Assembly: GCA_023262495.1 (NCBI GenBank)
Contig: JALRAS010000018.1
Location: 1-33,079 of the forward strand
Length of the DNA: 33,079 nt
Source: Bacteroidia bacterium
Lineage (GTDB): Bacteria > Bacteroidota > Bacteroidia > UBA4408
Reading direction: 5' to 3'
Made by a program: the position numbers and the translations under genes. Positions within the stretch are counted from its first letter, which is position 1; each line of letters begins with the position of its first letter. Positions 18,263-33,079 of the stretch are shown piece by piece. A model generated the notes under the pieces. The model ran no database searches, was not told where the DNA came from, and saw nothing but the letters and a program-made list of their open reading frames with translations.

Positions 18263-18309
18263 AGAAAAATTTTATGTGTAAAGATAGTAAAGGAAAAGCG
18301 ATTTCAAAT

Positions 18310-18381
18310 ATGTTACCTAAAAAAATTGAAGTTCAGCATGATGGCTGTACTTGCGGTACATATAAATCAAAGGTTATTTGA
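18310..18381 (+). other. Very small ORF (23 aa) MLPKKIEVQHDGCTCGTYKSKVI with a Cys-X-Cys motif; coding status unknown
   Basis: ATG at 18310, TGA at 18379-18381, read directly; lies in the intergenic region upstream of the MbnP-like gene. Confidence 0.2.
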
Positions 18382-18408
18382 ACAAGTTGTTGCATACTTT
18401 GTGTAACT

Positions 18409-18523
18409 ATGCGAAAAATAAATAAAAAAATTAATTTGCTTGATTGCAACCTTTATTTCTACAGGTTGTTCATTCTCCAACCTTAATGATAATGATTCGT
18501 TACCTCAAAAGAAATTAATTTGA
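18409..18523 (+). pseudogene. Apparent frameshifted mini-lipoprotein ORF (MRKINKK[fs]LICLIATFISTGCSFSNLNDNDSLPQKKLI*)
   Basis: ATG at 18409 in frame 1; a 7-A run at 18424-18430 separates it from a frame-2 lipoprotein signal peptide with lipobox (FISTGC) ending at TGA 18521-18523. One base fewer in the run joins the two. Confidence 0.45.
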
Positions 18524-18573
18524 ATTAAAGTAAAGATAAATTGCATAAATTTACAACGATAAAAAAATCAGCA

Positions 18574-19371
18574 ATGAAGTGTATCTATAAATTTTTTCTT
18601 TTAAATTTGGTAATCATCGCAATAGCTTGCAGGAAAGACAGTTCCTTGAAAAAAGAAACTCAAGATCCTGCCATACCCAAACCGGTTGAAAATATAAAAT
18701 ATGGCTCGGTGAGAATTAATATCTCTAATTTGGTTGGCAATGAAATGATTTCTCTGAACGATAGTGTCTACACCAATACAAACGGAGATAGTTTTACTAT
18801 ATCTAAGTTCAAATACTATTTAAGTAATTTTACCTTAAGAAATGCGAATGGTGAACTACATAGACAAACTGAAAGTTACCACCTAATTGATTGTCAAAAA
18901 GGGTCTAGTTTTACCATGCTAATCGATAGCGTTCCGGTAGGAACTTACAATGCCATGAATTTTATTTTAGGGGTAGATAGCACCCGAAATACCTCAGGTG
19001 CTCAAATAGGTGCACTCGACCCTGCGCTTGGGATGTTTTGGAGTTGGAACCAGGGATACATTTTTTTAATGATGGAGGGTTCTTCACCCAACTCTACAGC
19101 ACCTGATAATATGATTACTTACCATCTTGGCGGTTTTGCACAGCCCTACAATTGTATTCGTAATGTTAACCCAAGTTTTGGTGCGCTTGATCTTGTTGTA
19201 ACTGAAAAAAATTCAAGTGAAATTGAAATTTCTGCAGATTTATTGCGGTTATTTGATACGCCTACGCTCATTAAATTTGCTCAAACAAGCGAGGGAATGG
19301 GCGGAGCAATTGCTGTTACACTCTCAAACAACGCAGTTAATATGTTTAAAGTTATAGATATTGAAAATTAA
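18574..19371 (+). CDS. MbnP-like lipoprotein (copper-binding MbnP family)
   Basis: Lipoprotein signal MKCIYKFFLLNLVIIAIAC; FKYYLSNFTLRN, YHLIDC, VPVGTYNAMNFILGVDSTRN, GMFWSWNQGYIFLMMEG, YHLGGF: matches the MbnP family pattern. Next gene is a di-heme peroxidase. The ORF track start (18541) is TTG; ATG at 18574 is preferred. Confidence 0.85.
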   Translation: MKCIYKFFLLNLVIIAIACRKDSSLKKETQDPAIPKPVENIKYGSVRINISNLVGNEMISLNDSVYTNTNGDSFTISKFKYYLSNFTLRNANGELHRQTESYHLIDCQKGSSFTMLIDSVPVGTYNAMNFILGVDSTRNTSGAQIGALDPALGMFWSWNQGYIFLMMEGSSPNSTAPDNMITYHLGGFAQPYNCIRNVNPSFGALDLVVTEKNSSEIEISADLLRLFDTPTLIKFAQTSEGMGGAIAVTLSNNAVNMFKVIDIEN

Positions 19372-19374
19372 AAC

Positions 19375-20412
19375 ATGGGTAAATTAAGCATATATATAGT
19401 CTGTCTGATGCTTATTTTGACAGCTTCTTGCAAAGTTGATTCTAAATTTGATCCTATTATTAACGAGGATGATATTACTGTAAAGTGGCCTGATTATTTC
19501 CCTGCTCCCGCGTATGATTTTTCAGGAAATCCCATCACTAAGGAGGGCTTTCTCTTGGGTAAAAAACTATTTTACGATCCAATTTTAAGCGTTGATAATA
19601 CGATTAGTTGTGGCAGTTGTCATCAGCAGTTTGCTGCTTTTGCTCATGCCGATCATAAGTTGAGTCATGGTATAGACAATAAGTTGGGGGTGCGAAACTC
19701 TCAGGCGTTATTCAATATGATTTGGAACACTTCATTTTTTTGGGATGGTGGTTCAAAACATATCGAGGTTCAGCCCATAGGCCCAATTACCAATCCGGTA
19801 GAAATGGATGAAACCGTTCAAAACGTAGTCTATAAATTAAGTCAGCGAGCCGATTATAAAAGTCTTTTTAAAGCGGCATTCAATACTGATAGTATTACTA
19901 GTCAGCTTATGTTGAAGGCAATCGCACAATTTATGGGTGCTTTTGTAAGTGCCAGCTCGAAATACGACAAGAACCGAATTGACCCTATTGCCAATCCTTT
20001 TACTGAAGATGAAAAATTGGGTCAAACTATTTTTGAAAGTAAGTGTGCATCTTGTCACGTTCCGCCATTGTTTACAGACAATAGTTTTCGCAACAATGGT
20101 TTAGATGAAATTTTTTCTGACAGTGGCAGGTATCTAATAACAAATATTAACAGCGATATGGGAAAGTTTAAAGTGCCTTCCCTGCGAAACATTGAATTAA
20201 CCTATCCCTACATGCATGATGGGCGTTTCGAGACATTACCGCAGGTATTGAATCATTACAGCTCAGAGATCAAGCAATCGGCAACATTGGATCAGTCATT
20301 AACCAATGGAATTGCACTTAATAACACCGAAAAGCAGCAGTTGATAGCATTTTTAAAAACACTCACAGATAGAGAGTTTATAAACGACCCAAGATTTAAA
20401 GAGGCCAATTGA
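19375..20412 (+). CDS. Di-heme cytochrome c peroxidase / MauG-MbnH family protein
   Basis: 345 aa; two CXXCH motifs (CGSCHQQ, CASCHVPP), PLGKKLFYDP-like LGKKLFYDPILS, VRNSQALFNMIWNTSFFWDGG, YPYMHDGRFETLPQVLNHY. Lipoprotein-like N-terminus. Confidence 0.93.
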   Translation: MGKLSIYIVCLMLILTASCKVDSKFDPIINEDDITVKWPDYFPAPAYDFSGNPITKEGFLLGKKLFYDPILSVDNTISCGSCHQQFAAFAHADHKLSHGIDNKLGVRNSQALFNMIWNTSFFWDGGSKHIEVQPIGPITNPVEMDETVQNVVYKLSQRADYKSLFKAAFNTDSITSQLMLKAIAQFMGAFVSASSKYDKNRIDPIANPFTEDEKLGQTIFESKCASCHVPPLFTDNSFRNNGLDEIFSDSGRYLITNINSDMGKFKVPSLRNIELTYPYMHDGRFETLPQVLNHYSSEIKQSATLDQSLTNGIALNNTEKQQLIAFLKTLTDREFINDPRFKEAN

Positions 20413-30811: not shown

Positions 30812-33079
30812 ATGCGATTGAATAAGAAATTTACATTTACGGTCTGTTTGATTTTTCTCATTGCTTGCGTGCAAGTTTTTGCTCAAAATGGAAACATCAG
30901 GGGTTTTGTATATGAATCTGAATCTGCCGAGCCGGTTATATTCACATCCGTTATTCTTAAAGGAACAACCTTTGGCGCGCAAACCGATGTTAATGGCTAT
31001 TTTTCAATAACCAAGTTGCCTGCCGGGTCATATACCTTGATGATTACTATGCTCGGTCATGACACATTAATCGAGAAAATCAACCTCAAAGAAAATGAAA
31101 TTCTTACCAAGAAATTATTCATTAAAAAATCTTCTGTAAAGCTTAAAGAGTTTGAGATATCGGCTGAAAAAAAAGAACAGCTTACTGAAGTACGCACATC
31201 GGTCACCAAAATTACGCCTCAAGACATTAAGAAGATTCCTTCAGTTGGTGGGGAGCCCGATTTAGCTCAATACCTGCAAGTGCTGCCAGGAGTTATTTTT
31301 ACTGGAGATCAAGGAGGGCAACTTTACATTAGGGGTGGTGCTCCTGTTCAAAATAAAGTGTTGCTCGATGGGATGATTATTTACAACCCTTTTCACTCAA
31401 TTGGTTTATTCTCGGTGTTTGATGCCGACTACATAAGGAATGCAGATGTTTACACAGGTGGATTTGGCGCACAATATGGTGGTCGTATTTCATCTATTAT
31501 GGATATCACCACGCGCGATGGTAACAAAAAAAGACTTTCAGGCAAGGTTGGAGCTACTACATTCGGATCAAAAGTATTGCTCGAAGGTCCACTTAAAAAA
31601 GCCAAAGAAGATGGCGGTGGCTCATCTTCATTTTTGTTATCATTCAAAAACTCATTTCTTGAGCAAAGTTCTAAGTTGCTTTACAACTATGTTGACACAG
31701 CCGGACTTCCATTTAATTTTACCGACTTTTACGGAAAAGTCTCCTTAAACGCTTCAAACGGCAGCAAGATCAATCTTTTTGGTTTCAATCAAACAGATGT
31801 TGTTAATTATAAAAACACCAGTAATTTAAAATGGACTCAAACCGGTTTAGGGTCTAATTTTATTGTGGTACCCTCAGGATCTGCTGTTTTAATCAAAGGT
31901 AACTTTGCGTATTCGAAATATGGCATCACCATGGGCGAAGGCACCGAAAAGCCAAGAAGCAGTAGTATCAATGGATTTAACTTTGGTATCAACTTTACCT
32001 ATTTCAAGCGCCAAAATGAGTTGAACTACGGAATTGATATACTCGGATTTAAAACAAAGTTTGATTTTTACAACTTTAATTACAAAATATCTCAAGAAGA
32101 AAATACCTCAGAACTTGCCGGCTACCTCAGGTACAAAATGATTTTTGGCAAGTTAATTATCGATCCTAGTTTACGTATTCATTACTATGCATCGTTGCAG
32201 GAAATTTCGCCCGAGCCAAGATTTGGTTTGAAATACAACCTTACCGATCGCTTTAGAATAAAAGCTTCTGGTGGAAGATACACACAGAACTTGCTTGCTG
32301 CAAACTCTGATCGTGATGTGGTTAACTTGTTTTACGGTTTTTTATCAGGACCTGAAAACTTGCCTCAAACTTTTGTTACCCGAAACGGAAATGTAAAGGA
32401 TGTAAACAGCAAATTACAAAAAGCGCTTCATTACATTGCAGGTTTTGAGTTTGACATCACCAGCAAAATATCCTTGAATGTGGAAGGGTATGATAAAGAA
32501 TTTACACAACTCACCAACATCAACAGAAATAAAATTTTTGATGATGTGGCCGATAATTCAGCTAAGCCCGATACACTTAAAAAGGATTATATCATTGAAA
32601 GTGGTTTTGCAAGAGGTATAGACTTCTTGCTGAAATTTGATTACAAAAAATTGTATGTATGGGCAGTTTATTCCTTTGGTTTTGTAAGAAGATGGGATGG
32701 TCAACAGCTTTACCCACCTCATTTCGATAGGAGGCATAACATTAATCTTGTAAGTTCTTATGTTTTTGGTAAGGGTCTCAACTGGGAAATTGATGCACGT
32801 TGGAATTTTGGATCTGGTTTTCCTTTTACCCAAACGCAAGGATTTTATGAAATGCTCGATTTGCAGGGTAATTTGAATAGTAATGTGGCCACAGCCAACG
32901 GTAATTTAGGGATATTATATGGAAGGCTAAATAACAAACGTTTGCCAACCTATCACCGACTCGATATCAGTATCAAAAGAAAATTTGCAGTAAGTGAAAA
33001 TGGCATTTTGGAAGTGAATGCCGGTGTAACCAATGTGTACAATCGTGAAAATGTATTTTATTTCAATCGTATAACCAAC
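30812..33079 (+). CDS. TonB-dependent outer-membrane receptor with N-terminal carboxypeptidase-regulatory-like domain, 3'-truncated by window edge
   Basis: Open frame from ATG 30812 to the window end (756 codons, no stop): MRLNKKFTFTVCLIFLIACVQVFAQNGNIRGFVYESESAEPVIFTSVILKGTTFGAQTDVNGYFSITKLPAGSYTL...; plug domain LAQYLQVLPGVIFTGDQGGQLYIRGGAPVQNKVLLDGMIIYNPFHSIGLFSVFDADYI. Absent from the ORF track because it is open-ended. Confidence 0.92.
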   Translation, partial: MRLNKKFTFTVCLIFLIACVQVFAQNGNIRGFVYESESAEPVIFTSVILKGTTFGAQTDVNGYFSITKLPAGSYTLMITMLGHDTLIEKINLKENEILTKKLFIKKSSVKLKEFEISAEKKEQLTEVRTSVTKITPQDIKKIPSVGGEPDLAQYLQVLPGVIFTGDQGGQLYIRGGAPVQNKVLLDGMIIYNPFHSIGLFSVFDADYIRNADVYTGGFGAQYGGRISSIMDITTRDGNKKRLSGKVGATTFGSKVLLEGPLKKAKEDGGGSSSFLLSFKNSFLEQSSKLLYNYVDTAGLPFNFTDFYGKVSLNASNGSKINLFGFNQTDVVNYKNTSNLKWTQTGLGSNFIVVPSGSAVLIKGNFAYSKYGITMGEGTEKPRSSSINGFNFGINFTYFKRQNELNYGIDILGFKTKFDFYNFNYKISQEENTSELAGYLRYKMIFGKLIIDPSLRIHYYASLQEISPEPRFGLKYNLTDRFRIKASGGRYTQNLLAANSDRDVVNLFYGFLSGPENLPQTFVTRNGNVKDVNSKLQKALHYIAGFEFDITSKISLNVEGYDKEFTQLTNINRNKIFDDVADNSAKPDTLKKDYIIESGFARGIDFLLKFDYKKLYVWAVYSFGFVRRWDGQQLYPPHFDRRHNINLVSSYVFGKGLNWEIDARWNFGSGFPFTQTQGFYEMLDLQGNLNSNVATANGNLGILYGRLNNKRLPTYHRLDISIKRKFAVSENGILEVNAGVTNVYNRENVFYFNRITN

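Follow-up and report, generated by a model that had tools for sequence, protein, structure and literature searches.

A divergent Bacteroidota pair of an MbnP-family lipoprotein and an MbnH-like di-heme enzyme with a predicted copper site

We analyzed a 33,079-nucleotide stretch of DNA (the window) from an uncultured Bacteroidia bacterium, which contains two genes on the same strand (+) with a 3-bp gap between them. The first gene (18574..19371) encodes an MbnP-family lipoprotein of 265 aa with the lipobox AIAC (Cys19) and an aromatic motif, GMFWSWNQGYIF, at residues 153-164. The second gene (19375..20412) encodes a 345-aa MbnH-like enzyme of the di-heme CCP/MauG superfamily, with two CXXCH heme sites, CGSCH at residues 79-83 (19609..19623, +) and CASCH at residues 224-228 (20044..20058, +), and with PYMHDGRF. 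Coordinates, strand, spacing and motifs were found to be as given in a preliminary description of this DNA, which missed the lipobox of the enzyme (TASC, Cys19). Since the second protein has a lipobox too, both partners are probably lipid-anchored.

The pair is flanked by a divergent NAD kinase gene upstream and a TPR lipoprotein gene downstream. A Pfam scan of the 20 other open reading frames (ORFs) of the window revealed no methanobactin-type gene and no copper gene, and a methanobactin operon (MbnA, MbnB and MbnC with a cognate TonB receptor alongside) was not seen among the ORFs scanned. The earlier statement that no methanobactin enzymes adjoin the pair therefore holds for the ORFs scanned. 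The accompanying statement about the cognate TonB receptor is true of the immediate neighbors, but a receptor-like ORF starts approximately 10 kb downstream of the pair, at about 30.8 kb. Read by eye, this ORF (~30812-33079) appears to have a carboxypeptidase-like domain, a plug and a barrel, and it runs off the end of the window. Upstream of the pair, positions 18409-18523 contain a possible remnant of a short lipoprotein frame (LIATFISTGCSFSN...), in a different frame from the nearest ATG.

The lipoprotein matched the Pfam family MbnP (PF20243) with 174.9 bits against a gathering cut-off of 27 (2.2e-51). Sequence searches of the PDB gave little: phmmer with the window MbnP found nothing, and a profile search returned only a weak match (E 0.33) to 7l6g, the solved MbnP of Methylosinus trichosporium. 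We therefore used fold comparison, with an AlphaFold2 model built from 27 homologues (pLDDT 88). The model matched six chains of 7l6g (E 3.7e-9 to 3e-8, prob 1.00, TM about 0.5) and had no other convincing match in the PDB. Membership of the lipoprotein in the MbnP family stands on the profile and the modeled fold together, at an identity to the solved MbnP of only about 15%.

For the enzyme, Pfam CCP_MauG (PF03150) matched with 177 bits (3.6e-52), and the best fold match in the PDB was 6e1c, the MbnH of M. trichosporium (E 9.7e-21, TM 0.80), with classical peroxidases, MauG and other CCP/MauG structures close behind. These Pfam and fold matches bear out the MbnP/MbnH-type assignment of the preliminary description, which had proposed a search against both families. 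That search gave a score above the Pfam cut-off for the lipoprotein and scores below the NCBIfam equivalog cut-offs for both proteins, at 43.9 vs 140 bits for the lipoprotein (TIGR04052, MbnP_like_WxW) and 233 vs 362.85 bits for the enzyme (TIGR04039, MbnH). The enzyme was also far below the cut-off of the MauG model TIGR03791 (161 vs 443.85). Scores so far below the equivalog cut-offs, together with the lipoboxes of both proteins, agree with the proposed lipid-anchored Bacteroidota version and place the pair, judged by sequence, on a divergent Bacteroidota branch. We do not use the NCBIfam MbnH score to discriminate, since a lone CCP of the same genome also scores 233; the identity of the enzyme thus rests on linkage and fold, not on this score.

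One alternative casts the enzyme as an ordinary di-heme cytochrome c peroxidase with a role in H2O2 detoxification, and the lipoprotein as its electron donor, a scaffold or an unrelated neighbor. It draws on the closeness of the enzyme to classical bacterial peroxidases in sequence and fold (1iqc, E 2.4e-40 and TM 0.73) and on the failure of TIGR04039 to separate it from the lone CCP, but the best fold match is MbnH, and Tyr295 (20257..20259, +) replaces the Met ligand, although many lone CCPs share this Tyr. In alignments, the counterpart of this residue is Tyr in 6e1c and Met in 1iqc, and residues 60-296 of the enzyme match MauG 12-295, so that Tyr295 falls on the axial-ligand position Tyr294. 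Among MbnP-adjacent enzymes, Tyr occupies this position in 102 of the 104 that could be scored, the heme-1 site is invariant in all 107, and the inter-heme Trp (Trp123 of FWDG in the window enzyme; 19741..19743, +) is present in 95; the heme-2 site is conserved as well. Sampled lone CCPs have the Tyr in 13 of 23 cases and the Trp in 18 of 23. Trp123 was consequently discarded as a way of telling MbnP-adjacent enzymes from lone ones; in the window genome, the lone CCP has F at this position. The window enzyme therefore has the two c-heme sites, the MauG-type Tyr and the inter-heme Trp of an MbnH-like protein, which part of the lone CCPs share, in addition to MbnH as its closest solved structure and a gene adjacent to mbnP.

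We examined the coupling of the two genes across genomes. MbnP was found in 218 of 295 genomes of the class Bacteroidia, and a CCP (di-heme peroxidase) was present in 213 of these 218, compared with 27 of the 77 genomes lacking MbnP, as counted from lists of the class genomes with no correction for phylogeny. A same-strand enzyme adjoins MbnP in 61 of 80 named loci. The distances among MbnPs and among enzymes were correlated (Mantel r 0.82 over 107 pairs, with 0 of 1000 permutations as high), a value that is not corrected for phylogeny and to which shared ancestry contributes. The pairing noted in the preliminary description is thus upheld. Both the gene order, fixed in most loci, and the co-divergence speak against the ordinary-peroxidase alternative, which we consider improbable.

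A collection of sequences was scanned with an alignment of eight sequences, the 27-sequence alignment being too diverse for this purpose. In four of the five MbnP-bearing genomes without a CCP, K or Q occupies the position of a conserved His in the homologues, which mostly lack the WxW motif; in the fifth, G155, MbnP keeps both WxW and His. An enzyme was present in the flanks (~1.5 kb) of 51 homologues with WxW and His and absent from those of 17, while 12 of the 13 homologues with K or Q lacked an adjacent enzyme and the remaining one is 1.3 kb away from an enzyme that belongs to another MbnP. Five loci (L054, L052, L053, L070 and L072) have an MbnP fold with K or Q for His, no WxW and no adjacent CCP, and these are apparently enzyme-independent paralogues. 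The preliminary description had held that a clade in which the peroxidase never co-occurs with the lipoprotein would refute the pairing. Such separation was found essentially only in paralogues without the His ligand and, mostly, without WxW, which strengthens the case for coupling. On another contig, the window genome itself carries a second MbnP/CCP pair (GMYWTWQSGY, FHLGGY), and it also has a third CCP that stands alone. In two records named Solimonas (L144 and L153; Gammaproteobacteria by name), an enzyme adjoins an MbnP of the Bacteroidota type (MFWTWKSGY), which suggests transfer between phyla.

The loop after heme 1 differs between MbnP-adjacent and lone enzymes. In the window enzyme it reads AHADHKLSHG (HADHKLSHG, 19645..19671, +) and contains an HxxxHG motif that is typical of MbnP-adjacent enzymes. 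The motif, which was derived by inspecting the same sequences in which it was then counted, occurs in 75 of 81 enzymes beside HxGG-type MbnPs and in 5 of 26 whose neighboring MbnP is of another type. None of the 22 sampled lone CCPs has it; for two of them (L209 and L210), an MbnP homologue turned out to lie in the vicinity. Its absence from the sampled lone CCPs is a further point against the ordinary-peroxidase alternative. A docking surface or a second metal site would be our guesses as to the role of the loop.

The proposed copper site of the lipoprotein lies in the WxW motif, Met154-Phe-Trp156-Ser-Trp158 (19033..19047, +), and in His184 of HxGG (19123..19125, +). In the alignment of 27 homologues, W156 and H184 were invariant (27/27 each), M154 was found in 26 and W158 in 25, and His is replaced by K or Q in homologues without an adjacent enzyme. 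The window protein thus has the full combination of WxW, Met and His, and the weak profile alignment sets its WxW region against GMAWNWQAG of 7l6g. We take the roles of M154, W156, W158 and H184 at the copper site to be those of the characterised MbnP. A 2021 PNAS paper reportedly identified the first Trp of WxW as the kynurenine in M. trichosporium MbnP, with His and Met binding copper. In two enzyme-adjacent homologues (L016 and L018) MAWPxM replaces WxW, so that the first Trp is kept and the second lost. MAWPxxMGGGYHF variants of MbnP (L016:1399-3152, L018:1387-3148 and L068:1390-3185) lie beside a di-heme enzyme with a shortened post-heme loop. Residue conservation, the MAWPxM variants and the reported M. 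trichosporium site favor W156, the first Trp of WxW, as the likely kynurenine. The earlier proposal that one of the two Trp in FWSWNQGY is modified is supported as to the target, with a preference for the first; copper binding and kynurenine formation are predicted from homology and conserved residues.

It is improbable, in our judgment, that the enzyme modifies the lipoprotein Trp to give another product, or that the metal or function is a different one, such as a redox or structural cofactor. Divergence from the characterised MbnP, a four-Cys feature named for 7l6g that is not seen in the lipoprotein, and the lack of copper genes beside the window pair would be in line with this, but Met, the first Trp and His are all conserved, and the neighbors of the pair in relatives include SCO1 and Cys-motif proteins.

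These neighbors were surveyed in the named loci. Two unnamed conserved families lie beside MbnP in many Bacteroidota, in 33 of 80 loci each and together in 31. One is approximately 125 aa long, with CxN..C.GKC and an HPP ending, and the other, approximately 330 aa, is barrel-like and starts with CDxCGC; within L106-L185, L134:5494-5886 and L134:7794-8798 represent the families. Pfam assigned no confident family to most members of either, with three barrel members touching PF13557. Neither family had a match in the window genome (273 contigs, ~97% complete). Both families also flank MbnP homologues without an enzyme or without WxW. G002, a genome of the same genus (L009 / L110), has a solo WxW-type MbnP with no adjacent CCP near both Cys-motif families, and two other MbnP/CCP pairs. 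SCO1/SenC lies beside MbnP in seven loci, and a cbb3-type cytochrome c is also present in six of these; the seven are not independent, because at least five are from Pedobacter or relatives.

The Cys-motif and SCO1 neighbors are as compatible with the handling or delivery of copper as with its uptake. The pair may serve uptake, storage or the supply of an oxidase, and an acquisition module is therefore not established. Together with the second MbnP/CCP pair in the genome, this puts the earlier label of a stand-alone copper-acquisition module beyond the evidence. Export, detoxification or storage of copper by the same chemistry is a rather unlikely alternative, and it overlaps the explanation we prefer, which leaves the direction open. 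No uptake receptor adjoins the pair, and the small Cys-motif neighbors of relatives could sequester Cu(I); yet copper represses CorA, whose site and partner are of the same kind, and this is a sign of acquisition (PMC3912023).

The family assignments, the folds, the pairing, the conserved residues of the site and their loss where the enzyme is absent support a two-gene operon of MbnP/MbnH type. We consider it probable that the enzyme makes kynurenine at Trp156 and that the lipoprotein then binds copper and holds it or hands it on. In this mechanism, H2O2 would activate the di-heme lipoprotein enzyme to a high-valent (bis-Fe(IV)-like) state, and the activated enzyme would oxidise Trp156 of its partner to kynurenine. 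Once matured, the lipoprotein would bind copper, probably Cu(I), beside the kynurenine through His184, Met154 and solvent, and would hold it or pass it on in the cell envelope. We infer the heme chemistry, the kynurenine, the copper and the envelope role from homology. The missed NCBIfam cut-offs and the low MbnP identity count against this explanation, as do the roughly one quarter of named WxW-type loci without an enzyme in the flanking DNA examined and the lack of a CCP in G155.

It is possible, though we lean against it, that MbnP in Bacteroidota forms part of a copper-handling module not described before, together with the CxN..C.GKC and CDxCGC families, in which dedicated Trp-oxidising enzymes would have their own HxxxHG loop, enzyme-less paralogues would also have lost the copper-site residues, and the window pair would be a reduced form. 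A literature search of limited range found no paper on a Bacteroidota MbnP or 'metallo-mystery pair', and no description of the two Cys-motif families or of the HxxxHG loop; these families and this loop are the parts for which no description was found. Kynurenine copper sites have been demonstrated in very few proteins so far, and MbnP homologues occur in approximately three quarters of the sampled Bacteroidia-class genomes, so that, if the chemistry holds, such protein-bound sites may occur commonly across a phylum that is itself abundant. Site loss without the enzyme and the enzyme-specific His loop offer concrete residues for testing.

The window pair is an ordinary, well-supported example of a family whose wide distribution was already known. 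MbnP/MbnH pairs far beyond methanobactin producers and outside methanobactin operons, as the preliminary description had it, have been on record since 2013 (PMC3621798), and for MopE and CorA the kynurenine copper site is established (PMC3912023); the window pair adds a divergent Bacteroidota member. It resembles MbnP/MbnH of Methylosinus trichosporium OB3b (7l6g, 6e1c) in both folds, in WxW with Met at -2, in the conserved His, in the adjacent genes and in the MauG-type Tyr. It differs in its low identity (~15% for MbnP, 31-32% for MbnH), in having no methanobactin genes in the window and no counterpart of the four-Cys feature in the 7l6g record, in the lipoboxes of both proteins, and in the extra HxxxHG loop of the enzyme. 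MopE/SACCP and CorA/CorB of methanotrophs likewise combine a cell-surface copper protein and a kynurenine site with a co-transcribed di-heme partner (PMC3912023), the site in the window lipoprotein being a predicted one; unlike MbnP, MopE and CorA use two His ligands, and MbnP has no marked sequence similarity to them (PMC3621798). MauG of methylamine dehydrogenase shares the di-heme fold, the Tyr294 equivalent and the inter-heme Trp with the window enzyme, but acts on pre-MADH to form tryptophan tryptophylquinone.
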